From: a virus
IMG/VR virus record: IMGVR_UViG_3300033153_009192
Span: 1-30,413 of that record
Reading direction: 5' to 3' (one strand)
DNA length: 30,413 nt
This document shows, one piece after another, positions 2,101 through 10,447 of this stretch (within the stretch, counting starts at the first letter, position 1; each line of letters starts with the position of its first letter). The position numbers and the translations under genes are program-made. The notes beneath the pieces were generated by a model. That model ran no database searches and had not been told where the DNA came from. It saw only the letters and a list, made by a program, of their open reading frames with translations.

Positions 2101-2784
2101 TTAAAACCAACGAGTTTGAGGTGAAGCACTTTTAAAATTCTTAACCGCCTTTTTAAAGTACTCTTTATTAATCTCACAGGCTGTTAGTTCACACTTAAAA
2201 TGATGACAGGCAACAGCAATACTCCCACTGCCAAGATGTGTATCAAGAACTTTGAAAGATGGTTCAGCAAATTGCTTTAATAACCACTCATACAATTCCA
2301 TAGGTTTTGCTGTTGGATGAAATCTTTTTTCGTCAACAGCTCTTTTCTTTTTCTTTATGGTTTCAATAAACCTTCTTGTATAACATCTTGCAGATTGATC
2401 AAAGCTTGTCCAGGCTAACTCGCAGTCAGCAAAGTCCATACCTCGAATTTCTTTATCCCATACTGCAAAGCAACGACAACCATTTACCCAAAGATTAGGA
2501 AAGTAGTTACCTCCCCATATAATCTGCTCACGGCTAACACGAAACAACTCATCAAAGTAAGCTTGATCAGGAATAGCATCATCCCATCCAATATTATCCT
2601 CATCATGCTTTACATTTTTCCTTCCTCCCATTTTCATCTTCATAACATTGATACCGTAGGGAGGATCAACAATGGCCAAGTCAAACCATTGATCAGGTAC
2701 CTGTTTCATCAAGTCCATATTATCACAGTTATACAACTTGATTTTATCGCTACCTTTTGGTTTACCAATTTTCTTAAGCTTCAT
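2101..2784 (-). CDS. DNA (adenine-N6 or cytosine-N4) methyltransferase, beta class
   Basis: This 227-aa protein has the catalytic motif IV D-P-P-Y at residues 40-43, a HPTAKP motif near 156-161, and the S-adenosylmethionine-binding motif I as LDTHLGSGS at 180-188, followed by ACEINKEY. With DPPY first and the SAM motif last, this is the beta-class order typical of stand-alone amino-methyltransferases. It should transfer a methyl group to the exocyclic amine of A or C at a short site, perhaps to evade host restriction. No restriction endonuclease lies beside it. It overlaps the polymerase stop by 4 bp (ATGA). Confidence 0.92.
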   Translation of the reverse strand: MKLKKIGKPKGSDKIKLYNCDNMDLMKQVPDQWFDLAIVDPPYGINVMKMKMGGRKNVKHDEDNIGWDDAIPDQAYFDELFRVSREQIIWGGNYFPNLWVNGCRCFAVWDKEIRGMDFADCELAWTSFDQSARCYTRRFIETIKKKKRAVDEKRFHPTAKPMELYEWLLKQFAEPSFKVLDTHLGSGSIAVACHHFKCELTACEINKEYFKKAVKNFKSASPQTRWF

Positions 2785-4799
2785 ATTTTAACCTCTGTTA
2801 AGTGTCCCCAGTTCTTACCTTTTTCAAAATCCATTATCAATGGAACTCTCATAGGTAAACAATTTTCCATAATATACTTCATTTCTTTTATAACTTTTTT
2901 ATCCTGTTTATAATTACAGGAGAAGTTTAATTCGTCATGAACAGTAATCTGCGGTGGTCCTCCTAACCTATCATAGATACCGGCTTCATAAGTATCTACC
3001 ATAAGCTTCTTCATGAAGTCAGCAGCAGTCCCTTGTAATACACTGTTTAATGCCTTATGAGTGAAGGCTCTTTGTATATTCCCTTCCCCAAACTTCTCGG
3101 ATGCTTGAGAGAAGGTGTATGAGTGCTCTCCCCAAGGTTCTTCCCACCGATGAAACCTGGCTCGTCTTCCCATAAGGGTAGTGACAAAACCATACAACTG
3201 AGCTCTTTCCATATAATAATCAAAGGTAGTTTTAACAAAAGGCACACCAGCATGGTAAGCAGTCATTAAATCCTTTGCTTTTGTTGTTGATAAACCTAAA
3301 CTTTTCTGAAGTTTTTTCTTTCCCATGCCATAAACTATACCAAAGTTAATTGATTTAGCAGGCTTACGTTCAAGCAATATATTAGTAATCTCATTGATTA
3401 ATTCAATAGTAGTTTGATGATAATCTGTGTTAGGATATTTCTTATATAGTTTACGGATACCTTTAGAGCCGTTACCTCTGGCAAAATGAGCAAGTCCTCG
3501 ATATTCAATTTGACTTGCATCAGTCTTTAACCAGTCAGAAAAGCCTTCATCAGGCACAAAACAGCCACGAATAAGAGGAGCGTATATCGGATCACGTGAG
3601 GGTATATTCTGTAAGTTCGGATTACGGGAACTGAATCTTCCTGTAATTGCTCCACCTGCATCTCCTTTGAGTTGTGTAAATTCACAATGTATCCTTCCAT
3701 TAACATTTTTTTCAAGTATGGCTCCTTCAATAAATGTAGCTCTAAGTTTAGCCATACCTCGTATTTGAACAATCAACTGTGCAATATCACTTGGATGATT
3801 TTCTAAAAACAACTTTGTAAATGAAGGTTGCCCTTCTGGATGAGTCTTTGAAGGCTTGGTGTAACCATAGTGTAAGTTGTTATTGTCAAAAGCTACTTTA
3901 ATAGTTGCGCTGGCATTGACATTTACCTCACTTCCGGCTATCTTGTTTAATTGTTGTTGTAGGGTATCTTCATTAGTTATTAACTGATCCCTGACCTGCT
4001 CAGCTTGGTTGAGATCAACTCGTACTCCTCTGAAACGCATGTCTAAGAGAAGCGGTATTAATCGTTGTTCAAGATCTAACACTTCATTGAGTTTTTGTTT
4101 GTCGATTAACTTTCTTTGTTTTTTCCAGATTTGATATGGTTGCCAAGCGTCGCCTTCTGCATAAGGTCCAACATACGAAACCGGAGCTCTGTAGATATTT
4201 GCTCTTTGATTACTACCAACCTGTCCTCCATAATACTCAGCGCACCATGAGTACAGCTTTTGAGATACCTTCCCCGTTTTAAGGTATTGTCTTGCAATTG
4301 AATCAAGGTTATAAGATCTTCTGTGCTCATTTAGTAGTGCCTCCACATGCTGAATGTCAAGATAAGGACCGGGAACATTAACTCCCTCTGCACGAAGTCC
4401 TCCAATATCGTATATAATGTTTGCCCCAACTTTTAAAGCATTAGTACAAAGATTATCCTTACACCAAAGTAACACTTTATCAGGATCACAATTAAGATTA
4501 CTTTCTATAGTATGCCTCATTGGAAGGTATAAGGTTTCTTTCTTACCTGTTCCAACAGATACACTTACACCAACAAGATGACTATCTCCTCTTGCCCATC
4601 CCGGTCCATGAGTGAGTAAACGGGGATCAAAAGTTTCCGTGTCTATTGATAGTATCTTTGCATGTTTAAAATTAGGCCATTTACTTGGTTTAAGTGGTTT
4701 CCAAGAACTATGTATTCTTGGTTGTATATTCTTCTTACTACCCTTTCGTTTCCGTGTATTTTTTATACGTGGAGTCCAGAAGAGGCCTGTTTCACCCAT
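2781..4799 (-). CDS. polA-like: family A DNA polymerase with 3'-5' exonuclease domain
   Basis: 672 aa. An N-terminal DnaQ-like proofreading domain carries SIDTETFD, with the acidic pair D53/E55 of Exo I. The polymerase domain has motif A as DASQIEYR (D427; the usual residue after the Asp is Tyr, here Ala), motif B with R-x3-K482-x7-Y490-G, and motif C as H621-D622-E623. There is no 5'-nuclease domain, as in T7-type replicative polymerases. It should be the phage replicase, working with the clamp-like protein upstream and the primase-helicase at 17.0 kb. The start (MGETGLFW) overlaps the HNH stop by 8 bp, so its ribosome-binding site lies inside the HNH gene. Confidence 0.97.
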   Translation of the reverse strand: MGETGLFWTPRIKNTRKRKGSKKNIQPRIHSSWKPLKPSKWPNFKHAKILSIDTETFDPRLLTHGPGWARGDSHLVGVSVSVGTGKKETLYLPMRHTIESNLNCDPDKVLLWCKDNLCTNALKVGANIIYDIGGLRAEGVNVPGPYLDIQHVEALLNEHRRSYNLDSIARQYLKTGKVSQKLYSWCAEYYGGQVGSNQRANIYRAPVSYVGPYAEGDAWQPYQIWKKQRKLIDKQKLNEVLDLEQRLIPLLLDMRFRGVRVDLNQAEQVRDQLITNEDTLQQQLNKIAGSEVNVNASATIKVAFDNNNLHYGYTKPSKTHPEGQPSFTKLFLENHPSDIAQLIVQIRGMAKLRATFIEGAILEKNVNGRIHCEFTQLKGDAGGAITGRFSSRNPNLQNIPSRDPIYAPLIRGCFVPDEGFSDWLKTDASQIEYRGLAHFARGNGSKGIRKLYKKYPNTDYHQTTIELINEITNILLERKPAKSINFGIVYGMGKKKLQKSLGLSTTKAKDLMTAYHAGVPFVKTTFDYYMERAQLYGFVTTLMGRRARFHRWEEPWGEHSYTFSQASEKFGEGNIQRAFTHKALNSVLQGTAADFMKKLMVDTYEAGIYDRLGGPPQITVHDELNFSCNYKQDKKVIKEMKYIMENCLPMRVPLIMDFEKGKNWGHLTEVKI

Positions 4800-5322
4800 T
4801 ACAATACTCCTTTATATATCTAAACGCAGAACTATCTTCATTACATTTGTTCCAGTTAAGACATTGTTCAGCAGCTAACCTATGCGCAACTCCTTCTGTG
4901 AAATCCTTAAAATAACCTAAATGAAGGTTCTTATAACTTACCATAATTCTAACAGACCATATATTATCTCTTTTATACCAAGTTATTCCTGTTATTCCAC
5001 TTGTATTACTCTTACTTAACTTTGAGTTTCTTGCGTTACATTGTCTTGATGTTTCTCTAAGCTTTTTCCATTTATTGTTACTTGAGTTTTTATCCTTATG
5101 GTCTATTTCATATTCAGAGAAGTAACCTTTTTTATACAGCCAGGCAAGTCTGTGTCCTAAATAGAGCTTTTTATTTAGTCTTATTTCCAAATAACCAAGT
5201 TTATTGTAACTACCTGCTATATCGTTTTTATACACATGAGAAGAAACTCTTTTTTTCCATATAAAAATACCTTTCTTCTTTTTATATTTTAACACCTTCT
5301 TTAATGTCTTTTGTGTTATCAT
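4792..5322 (-). CDS. HNH homing endonuclease with AP2-type DNA-binding domain
   Basis: 176 aa. The HNH core lies at about residues 57-99: GHRLAWLYKKGYF, then E-I-D-H-K-D at 72-77 and the Asn residues at 79, 82/83 and 96/99. The C-terminal half (about 105-165: SGITGITWYKRDNIW, then LGYFKDFTEGVAHRLAAEQ) is the AP2-like domain that usually follows in free-standing phage homing nucleases. It sits exactly between the clamp-like and polymerase genes with overlaps at both ends (TAATG upstream, 8 bp downstream), as a selfish element inserted without breaking either. It is clearly related to the 7461-8138 protein. Confidence 0.93.
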   Translation of the reverse strand: MITQKTLKKVLKYKKKKGIFIWKKRVSSHVYKNDIAGSYNKLGYLEIRLNKKLYLGHRLAWLYKKGYFSEYEIDHKDKNSSNNKWKKLRETSRQCNARNSKLSKSNTSGITGITWYKRDNIWSVRIMVSYKNLHLGYFKDFTEGVAHRLAAEQCLNWNKCNEDSSAFRYIKEYCNG

Positions 5323-6245
5323 TACATACGTCCCGCTAATATAGCAGTATAACCATTACCTTTAAAATAACATTTTTCTTTAGTAAAACAAACTTCATCA
5401 AACATATCTATTAATAGGTCAAGATTTACGGAGTCCATTCTACCCTTTCCCTTTAGCTTTACGTTTTTAATTGTTGCATTATCTGTGATAATCGTTCCTT
5501 TCTGCAAAACAATCTCAGCGTTCGTTGTCATTGCAATTGCCATTCTAAACGATTTTTTGTGTTCCGCATTACATATTGTGTATGAAATGTTATCGTTGAA
5601 AACAGCGGCAATAGCCGGTGCTTTTTCGGCAATTTTTGGCGTTTCAATCCAACCACCATGAGGATACATAATTGTAATACTGTGATCGTTTATCAGCAAA
5701 TGTTTTATAGGCTCGTTTACCTTGATTATAAGGTTGATTAGTGCCTTGGGTATAAGACAATCTTTCATTTTTAATTTTGTACGCACAACTACTATGTTGT
5801 TGGTGGCGTATGCAAAGCTCTCTGTTATAATTATTGCTTCGGCCCAGGCATTATCGCTGTCCTGTGTGGTAAATAAGCTAAGTTTTTTGATAGTATCTAT
5901 GAAATTTTTTGGAACTTTTATTCGTTTACCATCAATGATCTTTTTCTCAATATACTCGGTAGTGTACCTGAGTGTAGACATGAAATTACTACGTCTAATA
6001 CGCAAGTATTTTTTGTCATCTTTTTCAAATAACTTTATTTCTGGTTTCCATTCACATATCTCTAAGGCCTTTGTTAATCTATCAGCATCAATAGAAAAAG
6101 GTGTCTTTGAATACGTCTTAACCGGATAGGACATTGTGGCAATGCCGTTAAATGTCTGGATACACTTTTTACAGGAGTGTATCTTAGTAAAGTCATCATC
6201 AAAGATCTTGATCCCTTTGGATACAAAATTTATAGCATTTTTCAT
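5322..6245 (-). CDS. sliding-clamp-like DNA polymerase processivity factor (putative)
   Basis: 307 aa with the repeated strand-helix texture of a beta-clamp: FSIDADRLTKALEIC (about residues 50-64), the strand pair WAEAIIITESFAYATNNIVVVRT, IPKALINLIIKVNEPIKHLLINDHSITIMYPHGGWIETP, and a C-terminal segment VNLDLLIDMFDEV. This matches distant clamp homologues seen next to family A polymerases in other phages. It would encircle DNA and tether the polymerase encoded two genes downstream. The assignment rests on pattern and context. Two N-terminal Cys (SCKKC, about 24-28) are not typical of clamps. Confidence 0.6.
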   Translation of the reverse strand: MKNAINFVSKGIKIFDDDFTKIHSCKKCIQTFNGIATMSYPVKTYSKTPFSIDADRLTKALEICEWKPEIKLFEKDDKKYLRIRRSNFMSTLRYTTEYIEKKIIDGKRIKVPKNFIDTIKKLSLFTTQDSDNAWAEAIIITESFAYATNNIVVVRTKLKMKDCLIPKALINLIIKVNEPIKHLLINDHSITIMYPHGGWIETPKIAEKAPAIAAVFNDNISYTICNAEHKKSFRMAIAMTTNAEIVLQKGTIITDNATIKNVKLKGKGRMDSVNLDLLIDMFDEVCFTKEKCYFKGNGYTAILAGRM

Positions 6246-6424
6246 AATTTTACTTCAATCTCAAGAAACATATGAGCCCTATGGGTATCATTACCTATTA
6301 TATAATCTCTGTGTAAACAAACATCTGCTATAGTTATATTATACTTCTCTTGAAAACTTATAAGCATAGTAGTTATTTCACCTTGTAGATCAATCTTTGC
6401 GTTTTTCGCTTCTTCAATATCCAT
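6242..6424 (-). CDS. 60-aa hypothetical phage protein
   Basis: The sequence starts MDIEEAKNAKIDLQGEITTMLISFQEKYNI and ends with a beta-type segment HMFLEIEVKL. Small proteins with the pattern 'EAK..KI.LE..I..LI..FE...G..I..V.L.R' are widespread in siphoviruses; their role is unknown. The start codon overlaps the stop of the QueE-like gene, and its own stop overlaps the clamp-like start by 4 bp, so it is translationally coupled on both sides. Confidence 0.7.
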   Translation of the reverse strand: MDIEEAKNAKIDLQGEITTMLISFQEKYNITIADVCLHRDYIIGNDTHRAHMFLEIEVKL

Positions 6425-7002
6425 TATTTCAATCCTATAACTTTGTTGGCAGGGAAGGTGAAATAAAAACCAAAAAATAAAGTAATATTAACAGCAGCCT
6501 TACAATTCTTTTTGAATTGCTTTTTGTTGTTGTTCCATTCAGGCTCAACTATAATCTTGGTTCTATTTTTTGGAACATATAGCCCTGTGGGAAGTCCCTC
6601 TTTGGTTAGGTTGGTTTTGTCGTTTATAACATACCGGAAGGCTAAGGCCTTTTCAACCATTAAAGAATTAATTTTTGATGTTGTTGGAGTAACAACAACA
6701 AAAGTAGCCTGTGGTAGCCATGGAATATCAGGATTAAAAAACTCTCCGTTAGTCTCAATGAGGACGTACATACCAGCACGAATAATATCATTGACCAGTA
6801 ATGATATATCTTGGCCTATATTATCGTCTTTAATAACAACGAAATGAGAGGCAGAATCCTTAAGGATAGTTTCAATAATGGTTTTAACCTTTGTCTTTTT
6901 CTTACCTCCAAGCTCAAGAAAGTAACCTGGCCTTCCAGCCATTGGTGTTGTTGTTAGAATAGAAAAGTAACCTTCTTTTACTCTGATCTTTTTAGCACTC
7001 AT
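6424..7002 (-). CDS. QueE-like protein lacking radical-SAM cysteines (probable pseudoenzyme)
   Basis: 192 aa that align by eye along most of 7-carboxy-7-deazaguanine synthase (QueE). EGYFSILTTTPMAGRPGYFLEL (residues 10-31) stands for the family's 'E-x-F-x-S-x-Q-G-E-G-x-x-x-G-R-P-x-x-F-x-R-L'. SHFVVIKDDN (52-61) stands for 'xxVVITGGEP'. IETNG (82-86) is conserved, and VVVTPTTSKIN (102-112) stands for 'VxVSPKxxxxN'. The Cx3Cx2C loop that binds the 4Fe-4S cluster is replaced by GGKKKTK (32-38), and the GGEP SAM-binding motif by KDDN. It therefore should not perform radical chemistry, though it may keep the fold or ligand binding. The upstream neighbour looks like a similarly altered QueD. The family call is by motif order and moderately sure. 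Confidence 0.6.
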   Translation of the reverse strand: MSAKKIRVKEGYFSILTTTPMAGRPGYFLELGGKKKTKVKTIIETILKDSASHFVVIKDDNIGQDISLLVNDIIRAGMYVLIETNGEFFNPDIPWLPQATFVVVTPTTSKINSLMVEKALAFRYVINDKTNLTKEGLPTGLYVPKNRTKIIVEPEWNNNKKQFKKNCKAAVNITLFFGFYFTFPANKVIGLK

Positions 7003-7265
7003 TTGTTGAACTCCACATAGGATTCTTGAGTATTTCCAATACGAATAATTTGGATTTCTGGTTGCAGTTGAACACAGAATAGATGTAAGGTTTTAGCCAT
7101 TGTCGGCAGACTTAAATCGGAAAAGTCTTTATCCATTTTACTTAATGCTTCGATAAGTGTCAAATCCAATTGTCTTCGGTCCACAAGAGCCTGGTAAACA
7201 ATGATCTGAATAAAGTAAATTTTACCTTCAATAACTTTACGAAAGGTGTTCTTAACACGAAACAT
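6999..7265 (-). CDS. QueD-like (6-carboxytetrahydropterin synthase fold) protein without catalytic residues
   Basis: 88 aa, shorter than the usual 110-130. MFRVKNTFRK, then YFIQIIVYQALVDRRQLDLTLIEAL (17-41) stands for 'H-S-Y-x-V-x-V-x-V ... M-V-x-D-F-x-x-L-K'. KMDKDFSDLSLPTMAKTLHLF (43-63) stands for 'x-L-D-H-x-x-L-N-D-x-PT-x-E-x-L-A'. IIRIGNTQESYVEF (73-86) stands for 'V-x-V-x-E-T-x-x-x-x-x-x-Y'. The zinc-binding HxH becomes GKI, the LDH histidine becomes MDK, PTxE becomes PTMA and the E of ET becomes N. The scaffold positions match while nearly all functional residues are gone. It overlaps the QueE-like start by 4 bp (ATGA). The homology is inferred from pattern only. Confidence 0.5.
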   Translation of the reverse strand: MFRVKNTFRKVIEGKIYFIQIIVYQALVDRRQLDLTLIEALSKMDKDFSDLSLPTMAKTLHLFCVQLQPEIQIIRIGNTQESYVEFNK

Positions 7266-7269
7266 TGAC

Positions 7270-7449
7270 TTACTCCTTATTAATCCACTTTACGGCTTCG
7301 TCTAAAGTTTTATGATAGCTGGTTTTAATACCATGAAACCTGTTAGGAACGGCAGCAACAAAAGGTGTGCTTTTTGTTCTTAATGTTTTAACTGTGGTTT
7401 TATTGATGATGCCGATTAACTCATCTCGTGTGTTCTTTACTTGTCTCAT
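7270..7449 (-). CDS. 59-aa hypothetical protein
   Basis: The start is taken at ATG 7449 (MRQVKNTRDELIGIINK) because AGAGGAAG lies about 6 nt upstream; a longer frame would run into the HNH gene. The protein is basic with mixed alpha/beta character and ends in the helix HKTLDEAVKWINKE. The sequence 'STPFVAAVPN..HGIKTSYHKTLDEAVKWI' suggests a small beta-hairpin plus helix domain. No family was recognised. It lies 4 nt before the QueD-like gene. Confidence 0.65.
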   Translation of the reverse strand: MRQVKNTRDELIGIINKTTVKTLRTKSTPFVAAVPNRFHGIKTSYHKTLDEAVKWINKE

Positions 7450-7460
7450 GTTACTTCCTC

Positions 7461-8138
7461 TTAAAAATAGATTTTGGCTTTTTTCTTTAGATGACATCCT
7501 TTTTTGTTTTGGATTTTTGCAGGTATCTGTTTCTTAGGACCAGCAAAACTACAGTAATATTGTATAAAATAGGCGCAATCATGACAACCTCGTAATCCTT
7601 TTATTGGTTTTACTTTAAATAAATTCTTTTGAACATATTGATAAGCAGGACTTGATAAGTCACATCCTTCCCAATTAAGGGCTTGTTCTCCTGCAAGTCT
7701 AAGACAAACTGCTTCTAAAAAGTCTTTTGATTGTCCTAAAAAACATCTCTTTTTATTAATTAAAATTCTTACGTCCCAAAAACCTCTTTTTGTTTTATAT
7801 ATTCCTTTTACTCCAGAAGTATTATCTTTTGGGTTTCCAGTATTTCTTGAATTACAAGAGTGACTTACCTCTCTTAAGTTTTTCCATTTATTATTGTTTG
7901 GATTTCTATCTTTATGATCTATACAATATTCAGGAAAGTAACCTTTTACATATAACCAAGCAAGTCTATGTGCTTTATAACAAGTACCCTTAATAGTTAT
8001 ATAAATATATCCTGCTGGAGATATGCAGCCAGCAATTTTATTCTTTTTTGAAACACCTCCGATACTTTTTTTCCATATAAAAACACCCTTCTTCTTTTTA
8101 TACTTAAGTATTTTTTTGAGTTGTTTTTGTGTAAGCAT
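7461..8138 (-). CDS. HNH-AP2 homing endonuclease with an added Cys-rich tail
   Basis: 225 aa. Residues 1-170 closely parallel the 4792-5322 protein (MLTQKQLKKILKYKKKKGVF; HNH core at about 57-99 with C-I-D-H-K-D-R-N; AP2 domain at about 105-165). Residues 171-225 are additional and hold C185-x2-C188-x7-C196-x18-C215, a likely zinc-binding unit (GCHDCAYFIQYYCSF ... KGCHLKK). The tail resembles short stand-alone phage Cys-rich proteins, so the endonuclease may have inserted at the start of such a gene and captured its body in frame. Its ATG lies 2 nt past the nuclease stop codon, with AAAGGGA upstream. Confidence 0.9.
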   Translation of the reverse strand: MLTQKQLKKILKYKKKKGVFIWKKSIGGVSKKNKIAGCISPAGYIYITIKGTCYKAHRLAWLYVKGYFPEYCIDHKDRNPNNNKWKNLREVSHSCNSRNTGNPKDNTSGVKGIYKTKRGFWDVRILINKKRCFLGQSKDFLEAVCLRLAGEQALNWEGCDLSSPAYQYVQKNLFKVKPIKGLRGCHDCAYFIQYYCSFAGPKKQIPAKIQNKKGCHLKKKAKIYF

Positions 8139-8139
8139 T

Positions 8140-8964
8140 TTATCCCTTTATACAACTAAACTTAGAACAACCTCTATATTGCTGACTAAGTGATAAGTTT
8201 TTAGTATACTTCTTACATTTCCAACCACCTTTTTTTACTAACTCTACGTGACTACACATGCGACAGGTAGAAACTGGTTTATCTGTAGAAAAACATAAAC
8301 CCTTGAAATTGCAGAATGTGCAGATATAATACGTCTCTTCTTGGCTGCATCGTTTAGGAATTGTTGGTGTCATACACAGTTCTACAAATCGTTCCTGCAT
8401 TTCCATGTGGACTTGCTTATCTCTATCAATAAACTCTATGTAAAGGAGATCATTGTCTTTATTAACAGACATAAATAAGGCTTTGTTAACATTGAAGCCG
8501 TACATATATTCCTGGCACTGGGCGTAATATTGGAAGTTGGCTACCTTTACAGACTTAGCGCGGTTTAGTTTTAGCCATGATTTGTTGCTGGCTGTCTTGT
8601 ACTCAGCAACATGCCACTCATTGTTGATGTAAGTAAAACCATCTGAATGACCTCTGATATGTCCGTGGTGCTGGACTAACTCAAACTGTTTCTTAGTCTT
8701 TGGATCATTCATTAATGTAGGATACCCGGCACCTCTTAGGTAGTCTACAAACCTGAACTCCTCCGCATGACCTCGAGAGAACAAACGATATAACCTGGCT
8801 GGGAAAATCTCCGGTAATGCAAATCTCCAACTATAAAAGACGTGGCGTATACATTGATGACCGATAGCAGAGATACCAAGATAGTTCCTTGGAGGCTTAC
8901 GGTTAAGCTCCATTACATGAACGTCAATCTGCTTCTTTAAAGTATCAACATCAATTTCTTTCAT
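8140..8964 (-). CDS. Cas4/RecB-like PD-(D/E)XK exonuclease with Fe-S cluster motif
   Basis: 274 aa. The RecB-family motifs are RGHAEEF (65-70), GHSDG (105-109, metal-binding Asp108), AEYKTA (120-125, catalytic Glu121/Lys123) and QYYAQCQEY (145-153, QxxxY type). One Cys early (C38 in GHQCIRHVFY) and three late (C215-x2-C218-x5-C224) form the split 4Fe-4S signature of Cas4/AddB nucleases. A second set (C234, C237, C250, C266) looks like a zinc finger. It probably resects DNA ends for recombination with the RecA-like ATPase and ssDNA-binding protein encoded upstream. Confidence 0.9.
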   Translation of the reverse strand: MKEIDVDTLKKQIDVHVMELNRKPPRNYLGISAIGHQCIRHVFYSWRFALPEIFPARLYRLFSRGHAEEFRFVDYLRGAGYPTLMNDPKTKKQFELVQHHGHIRGHSDGFTYINNEWHVAEYKTASNKSWLKLNRAKSVKVANFQYYAQCQEYMYGFNVNKALFMSVNKDNDLLYIEFIDRDKQVHMEMQERFVELCMTPTIPKRCSQEETYYICTFCNFKGLCFSTDKPVSTCRMCSHVELVKKGGWKCKKYTKNLSLSQQYRGCSKFSCIKG

Positions 8965-10231: not shown

Positions 10232-10260
10232 AGATTACTCCTATCCTGTTCTGTTGGATG

Positions 10261-10328
10261 AAACCCCTCGTTATCAGGCTTACAGCAACCTCACCAGGAA
10301 GGTGGGCTGGAATGATATTGAGGGGTTT
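10261..10328 (-). ncRNA. structured 5' leader RNA, candidate cis-regulatory element
   Basis: Within the roughly 145-nt untranslated leader of the RecA-like gene, outer arms 10261-10269 and 10320-10328 form a perfect 9-bp stem (AAACCCCTC/GAGGGGTTT). Inside it the minus RNA forms a second stem, CAGCCCACC with GGTGAGGTTG around loop UUCCU, leaving a 16-nt unpaired stretch. The placement between promoter and start codon suggests a riboswitch-like or protein-binding leader. No U-tract follows on the minus side. I do not recognise a known riboswitch class. Confidence 0.5.
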
Positions 10329-10383
10329 CTTGTATTTTGGTTTTATTTAATTATCCCTGCAATGGATTTTTAATTGATAAATA

Positions 10384-10412
10384 ATCATAACATACTTTGA
10401 TCAATTTGTCAA
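10384..10412 (-). promoter_or_regulatory. sigma70-type promoter for the replication operon
   Basis: On the minus strand, TTGACA (10407-10412) and TATGAT (10384-10389) are separated by 17 bp in very AT-rich DNA. Initiation near 10377 would give a leader of about 145 nt before the RecA-like gene and could serve genes down to the left edge. Confidence 0.75.
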
Positions 10413-10447
10413 TTAATATTTAATTTCAATTACCTAAGTATTACTAA

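Follow-up and report, generated by a model that had tools for sequence, protein, structure and literature searches.

The window analysed here, a linear IMG/VR virus record of 30,413 bases with no tail genes in view, carries on its minus strand a run of genes in the order Sak4, DUF669 SSB, Cas4, HNH endonuclease, a 75-aa ORF, an 88-aa ORF, a 192-aa ORF, a 60-aa ORF, sliding clamp, a second HNH and Pol (Table 1). The 88-aa and 192-aa genes overlap by 4 nucleotides through an ATGA (AAATGA), and each is preceded by a ribosome-binding site. An initial annotation, made from the sequence alone, had described these two overlapping, intact reading frames, both of which are indeed present, and had read their products as catalytically dead proteins on the scaffolds of QueD and QueE, two successive steps of preQ0 synthesis. 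Elsewhere on the same strand, a 183-aa protein (163-714) has a weak match (E 7e-4) to phrog_16568, a family of Ren-like exclusion proteins, and a 140-aa protein (1755-2177) one (E 3e-5) to PDC-M43B, a family of candidate defence proteins.

Table 1. Features around the QueD-like and QueE-like genes of the window; L173 is the related phage record discussed in the text.
Feature	Coordinates	Strand	Remarks
Empty site, 216 nt	10232..10447		L173 has QueC here, between a P347 homologue and Sak4
Sak4	10231-9572	-	
DUF669 SSB	9542-9030	-	
Cas4-type exonuclease	8140..8964	-	39-41% identical to L173, where the counterpart is the left-hand neighbour of the QueD-QueE slot
HNH endonuclease	7461..8138	-	C-terminal ~57 aa correspond to the Cys-rich small protein preceding QueD in L173 (42%)
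75-aa ORF, no assigned function	7270..7497	-	Between Cys-rich gene and QueD-like gene; without counterpart in L173
Putative QueD-derived minimal T-fold protein, 88 aa	6999..7265	-	ββααββ (model); zinc loop deleted; RBS AAGGAG
QueE-derived pseudoenzyme, 192 aa	6424..7002	-	Radical-SAM partial-barrel fold kept (model); [4Fe-4S] loop deleted; RBS GGAG
60-aa ORF, no assigned function	6242..6424	-	Fills the FolE and DpdA place of L173
DNA polymerase sliding clamp (phrog_947)	5322..6245	-	Adjoins the deazaguanine cluster in relatives
Second HNH	4792-5322	-	
Family A DNA polymerase	2781..4799	-	Identity 52-53% with L173 and 45% with Queuovirinae-like phages
DNA methyltransferase	2101..2784	-	Adjoins Pol; no match in the L173 record

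The 192-aa protein is truly homologous to phage QueE, with a similarity beyond chance. It is matched by phrog_2076 ('QueE-like radical SAM', E 3.4e-6); a tblastn search recovered 93 phage records (best 2e-7), the matches listed being nearly all annotated as QueE and coming from Queuovirinae and similar siphophages; phmmer linked it to the QueE of phage NP1 at 4e-12; its hhalign profile alignment with QueE scored 98.7%; and its nearest relative is the QueE of L173 (BLASTP 6e-19). A sequence search of the PDB gave no match. The AlphaFold model (pLDDT 94) was built on an alignment of 69 functional phage QueE sequences, so that its fold is guided by these; in the PDB it comes closest to the QueE proteins of E. 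coli, B. subtilis and B. multivorans, with Z scores of 15.9-17.7 as against 12 for the next family. Homology and modelled fold alike thus uphold the QueE scaffold proposed earlier, and the alignment bears out the reported loss of the Cx3Cx2C loop and of GGEP. The 15-residue Fe-S loop CNLQCPxCDTDYT is cleanly missing, together with its CxxxCxxC ligands, and the SAM motif TGGEP reads IKDDN, with KDDN at the GGEP position. Further replacements convert QGEG to LTTT, FVRL to FLEL, SPK to TPT and QxHK to PANK, and the substrate residues Q13, E15 and R27 are gone; a G, IETNG, YV, GLP, a P and the C-terminal KxIG are kept.

Recognition of the 88-aa protein comes from other sources. No QueD profile matched it, whether from Pfam (PF01242), PHROGs, NCBIfam (TIGR03367) or a 99-row HMM of phage QueDs, and its scores with the phage QueD profile and with all phage QueDs did not exceed those of its own shuffles. 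Profiles of QueD, FolE, QueC and DpdA likewise matched none of the 60-, 75- and 88-aa ORFs. NP1-type phages have hypothetical genes upstream of QueE, and the idea that the 88-aa ORF corresponds to these was also tested, and rejected. By contrast, an AlphaFold model made without an alignment (pLDDT 78, pTM 0.69, confident in only 3 of 5 models) shows the ββααββ strand order of the T-fold. Ranks 1-24 of its Foldseek matches in the PDB are all QueD/PTPS (top E 4.2e-4, probability 1.00), and VIA-align superposes the best PTPS chains with Z scores of 12.2 to 11.3 over 87-88 of the 88 residues, whereas other T-folds (QueF-like, FolX, dihydroneopterin aldolase) reach at most 9.3. Four uncharacterised viral proteins of 76-85 aa in BFVD (A0A6J5PAT0, A0A6J7WF63, A0A516LAL2 and A0A8S5ML66) are loosely similar to this model, and phages may encode further minimal T-fold proteins.

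The QueD of L173, chosen as an alignment partner by its position, is the sole QueD that rises above shuffles when compared with the 88-aa protein (one-to-one global alignment, z 2.3-2.9, p 0.024-0.006). In this alignment HGH becomes EGK, DH becomes DK, PTAE is replaced after PT, and ET becomes NT. Scaffold neighbours are retained, while other residues stand in for the zinc histidines, the His of DH and the glutamates of PTxE and ET, just as the initial annotation had reported, in a site-by-site register that depends on this one alignment and is uncertain in detail. Irrespective of register, three zinc histidines are impossible in the 88-aa protein, because its sole His is H61, which lies in a predicted helix; the protein does not show the combination of zinc histidines, catalytic Cys, D-H dyad, and PTxE and ET glutamates seen in QueD/PTPS.

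Both the claimed QueD scaffold and the proposed comparison of the two proteins with QueD and QueE profiles and structures therefore came out unevenly: QueE is recognized by profile and by model, QueD by modelled fold and by its slot in L173, but not by any significant profile match. The absence of a QueD profile match might also mean that the QueE assignment alone holds, the 88-aa protein being a small phage protein of other origin (Cas2-like, for instance) whose T-fold model is a coincidence. Cas2 profiles do match it weakly (PADLOC E 2e-4; TIGR01573 E 0.0037, at 17.5 bits below the 24.5 cut-off); Cas2 is not among the listed fold matches of the model. We consider this improbable, given that the 24 best PDB matches of an alignment-free model are of a single family, that the superposition spans the whole protein at a Z score well above that of other T-folds, that the gene has the exact slot and overlap of the L173 QueD and aligns with it above shuffles, and that Pfam gave no Cas2 hit at E<=10.

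L173 (IMGVR_UViG_3300039098_000131, 50.9 kb) was the best match among 80 QueE loci in a search with the QueE alignment, and the two genomes are collinear throughout. Besides the identities given in Table 1, their terminases share 47%, portals 30%, primases 28%, Sak4 proteins 43%, SSBs 35%, clamps 23% and QueE proteins 26-28.8%. L173 carries the full set of QueC, QueD, QueE, FolE and DpdA: QueC lies before Sak4, and the Cas4 and Cys-rich genes are followed by QueD-QueE, FolE, DpdA, clamp and Pol. Its QueD scores above the NCBIfam QueD cut-off, its QueE has every cysteine and GGEP, and the two genes overlap by AAATGA, as does the window pair. Since the L173 QueD has the same place, order and overlap, the 88-aa gene occupies the QueD slot. 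An HMM search of all ORFs in the 30-kb window (the tail part lies outside the record) found no QueC, FolE or DpdA, confirming what the initial annotation had noted, and the place held by FolE and DpdA measures 2602 nt in L173 against 179 nt in the window. Because these three genes are absent, no modification is expected from the window locus.

Some rearrangement is also seen around the pair. The methyltransferase gene (2101-2784, minus strand) lies between Pol and a small gene (1437-1691) that is 52% identical to a counterpart in L173; as that counterpart directly follows the L173 Pol, the methyltransferase was either gained in the window or lost in L173. The last ~57 residues of the HNH protein encoded at 7461-8138 (minus strand) are homologous to a free-standing Cys-rich protein of 75 aa in L173 (5289-5516), and, judging from this similarity, a homing-type HNH appears to have been fused onto the Cys-rich gene in the window. 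The two HNH genes (4792-5322 and 7461-8138, minus strand) have near-identical N-termini (ITQKTLKKVLKYKKKKGIFIWKK and LTQKQLKKILKYKKKKGVFIWKK) and flank the clamp and the region of the dead pair.

In a wider survey, both the Fe-S loop and GGEP are kept in 176 of 178 phage QueE loci, the two exceptions being fragments at contig edges, and the window stands alone in this sample in its motif loss. QueD precedes QueE in 18 of the 154 phage loci that have both. The proposed search for syntenic pairs turned up, in L173, a collinear QueD-QueE pair with intact catalytic residues; the viral and genome contigs searched yielded no further example of a dead pair. Close relatives were sought with the QueE-like protein, in viral as well as genome contigs, and with the QueD-like protein, Pol and Cas4 singly; these scans returned nothing, as did a search of genome contigs with a Pol alignment, and we found no paper on dead QueD or QueE in phages. 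A QueE tree fails to place the window, whose branch is at maximum length and joins another long branch. A separate variation marks a large subfamily, roughly 54 of 120 distinct phage QueDs (L003, L008, L121, L197, L218 and others), where SHC...HGY replaces the HGH zinc motif and EHGANS replaces ETxxS; from these motifs, the proteins are predicted to have an altered metal or active site, within otherwise complete pathways.

The pattern of loss and the state of the reading frames bear on whether the pair is decaying or retained. The catalytic residues of E. coli QueE are Q13, E15, R27, C31, C35, C38, T40, G94, S136 and Q189 (PMC11142719). None of these 10 is kept in the window protein, as against 22 of 46 other positions that are at least 90% conserved (Fisher p 0.004); omitting the deleted loop gives 0 of 6 against 22 of 42 (p 0.025). 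A wider test of pocket motifs (p 6e-5) used a residue set picked after the alignment had been seen and is not relied on. Neutral drift simulated to equal retention, by substitutions only and starting from five functional genes, produced a mean of 6-7 stops and left the frame free of stops in 2 of 1500 runs; the actual gene has none. Its in-frame codon signal of 0.30 lies about 7 standard deviations above that of shuffled sequences (-0.04, sd 0.05). Furthermore, the window is the closest phage to L173 in Pol (53%) and Cas4 (41%) and ordinary in clamp, but in QueE it ranks as the most distant among 178 (28.8% versus a mean of 38.9, sd 2.3), which argues that the QueE gene changed selectively and yet stayed open.

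It might be held that the pair is a late-stage relic of a pathway that became useless or costly, with QueD and QueE drifting, still open by chance and held in place by their coupled position in the operon. The disappearance of QueC, FolE and DpdA, the extreme divergence of the window QueE and the shortening of both proteins all accord with this, and phages that escape GrwAB, a type IV restriction system, show that loss of modification is selectable (PMC12137116). We nevertheless regard such a relic as unlikely, because equal drift would leave about six stops where neither stops nor frameshifts are seen, the losses are concentrated at catalytic positions, and the codon signal is strong in genes with ribosome-binding sites of their own. 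The two dead enzymes seem, from the missing stops, to be retained for a non-catalytic role. Accordingly, the earlier view that loss focused on the active site makes repurposing likelier than decay is sustained by the residue test, the drift simulation, the QueD alignment and the comparison of 178 loci, and the view of two successive pathway steps, both dead yet encoded by intact, coupled genes, by the residue losses, the open frames and the ATGA overlap.

In our reading, the window lineage probably descends from a siphophage ancestor with a complete pathway for preQ0 in DNA (FolE, QueD, QueE, QueC and DpdA), like L173 and the Queuovirinae, from which QueC, FolE and DpdA were deleted while selection maintained the dead QueD and QueE for a function other than catalysis. 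The two would have stayed as a translationally coupled pair, losing metal, cofactor and substrate residues and keeping their folds. The chemistry may have been given up under modification-dependent restriction such as that by GrwAB, which targets Queuovirinae and whose escapers carry dpdA mutations (PMC12137116); the DNA methyltransferase that now lies by Pol would be consistent with a swap of protection. As the Fe-S, SAM, Mg and pterin residues have been lost, the old pockets are unlikely to bind small molecules or to carry out chemistry on them, which leaves protein contact as the best guess. On their residues, the pair should neither make nor bind deazaguanine intermediates, and the pterin- or nucleotide-binding pair suggested by the initial annotation becomes less likely, given that Q13, E15 and R27 of QueE and the pterin-anchoring Glu of QueD have disappeared. 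Selection would most likely keep both proteins as subunits that associate with one another and/or with another protein. The likeliest such partner would be an early host target or a replication protein of the phage, because the pair is expressed from a replication operon, between recombination nuclease and clamp and coupled to the latter, a setting that favours a partner in replication or early takeover over a late one. That the two form a pseudoenzyme complex, co-opted for replication or host takeover after deazaguanine modification was given up, is a serious candidate, if not quite a probable one.

Other roles for a retained pair were also weighed. QueD and QueE are oligomeric enzymes, and the joint survival of two successive steps as dead scaffolds could point to an inhibitor of host deazaguanine metabolism that poisons the host QueD and QueE or a deazaguanine-based (Dpd) system. 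At 10-21% identity to the solved bacterial QueD and QueE, however, mixed oligomers with host enzymes are implausible, which makes the dominant-negative complex put forward in the initial annotation unlikely in that form, and we attach very little weight to this proposal. Many phages inhibit the division of their hosts, and a dead QueE might serve as a division or host-takeover factor by blocking septation, as E. coli QueE does. The R27A form of the E. coli protein, with which no queuosine is made, still filaments cells (PMC11142719). But filamentation by the E. coli protein depends on C31, C35 and the region E45-W67 next to the Fe-S loop (PMC11142719), none of which the window protein has; the QueE proteins of P. 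aeruginosa and B. subtilis do not have the activity, and the retention of the QueD-like partner would go unexplained, making such a role highly improbable here. We thus continue to favour retention of the pair for protein contact.

Pathways of phage DNA hypermodification are usually read as present or absent. The comparison of the window with L173 shows a third outcome, in which the chemistry is gone and two proteins persist as dead scaffolds. If confirmed, this would mean that phage biosynthetic enzymes can carry or acquire structural roles, in parallel with the moonlighting of E. coli QueE, and the involvement of two small proteins makes the question of dead scaffolds a testable one. There is also a caution for annotation by homology, which would label the window phage a preQ0 producer.

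Set against known systems, the QueE-like protein shares with the QueE of Queuovirinae and L173 its full-length homology, modelled fold and syntenic place, along with ETNG, YV, GLP and the C-terminal KxIG, but differs in having no Fe-S loop, GGEP, or substrate or SAM residues, and in its length (192 versus ~235 aa). The 88-aa protein resembles QueD (6-carboxytetrahydropterin synthase, of the PTPS family) in its predicted ββααββ arrangement over 88 residues (Z 11.8 to E. coli QueD, 4ntm) and in its gene slot and 4-nt overlap with QueE; it is about 30 residues shorter, has no detectable profile similarity, and lacks the zinc histidines, catalytic Cys loop, DH His, PTxE Glu and ET Glu. With the 7-deazaguanine clusters of phages 9g, CAjan, NP1 and L173 the locus shares its place between the Cas4 exonuclease and clamp/Pol, where two of the genes remain, whereas FolE, QueC and DpdA are absent. 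Finally, although the window protein is without the cysteines and neighbouring region required for the moonlighting division inhibitor of E. coli, that system provides a precedent for a catalytically dead QueE that keeps a biological role (PMC11142719).
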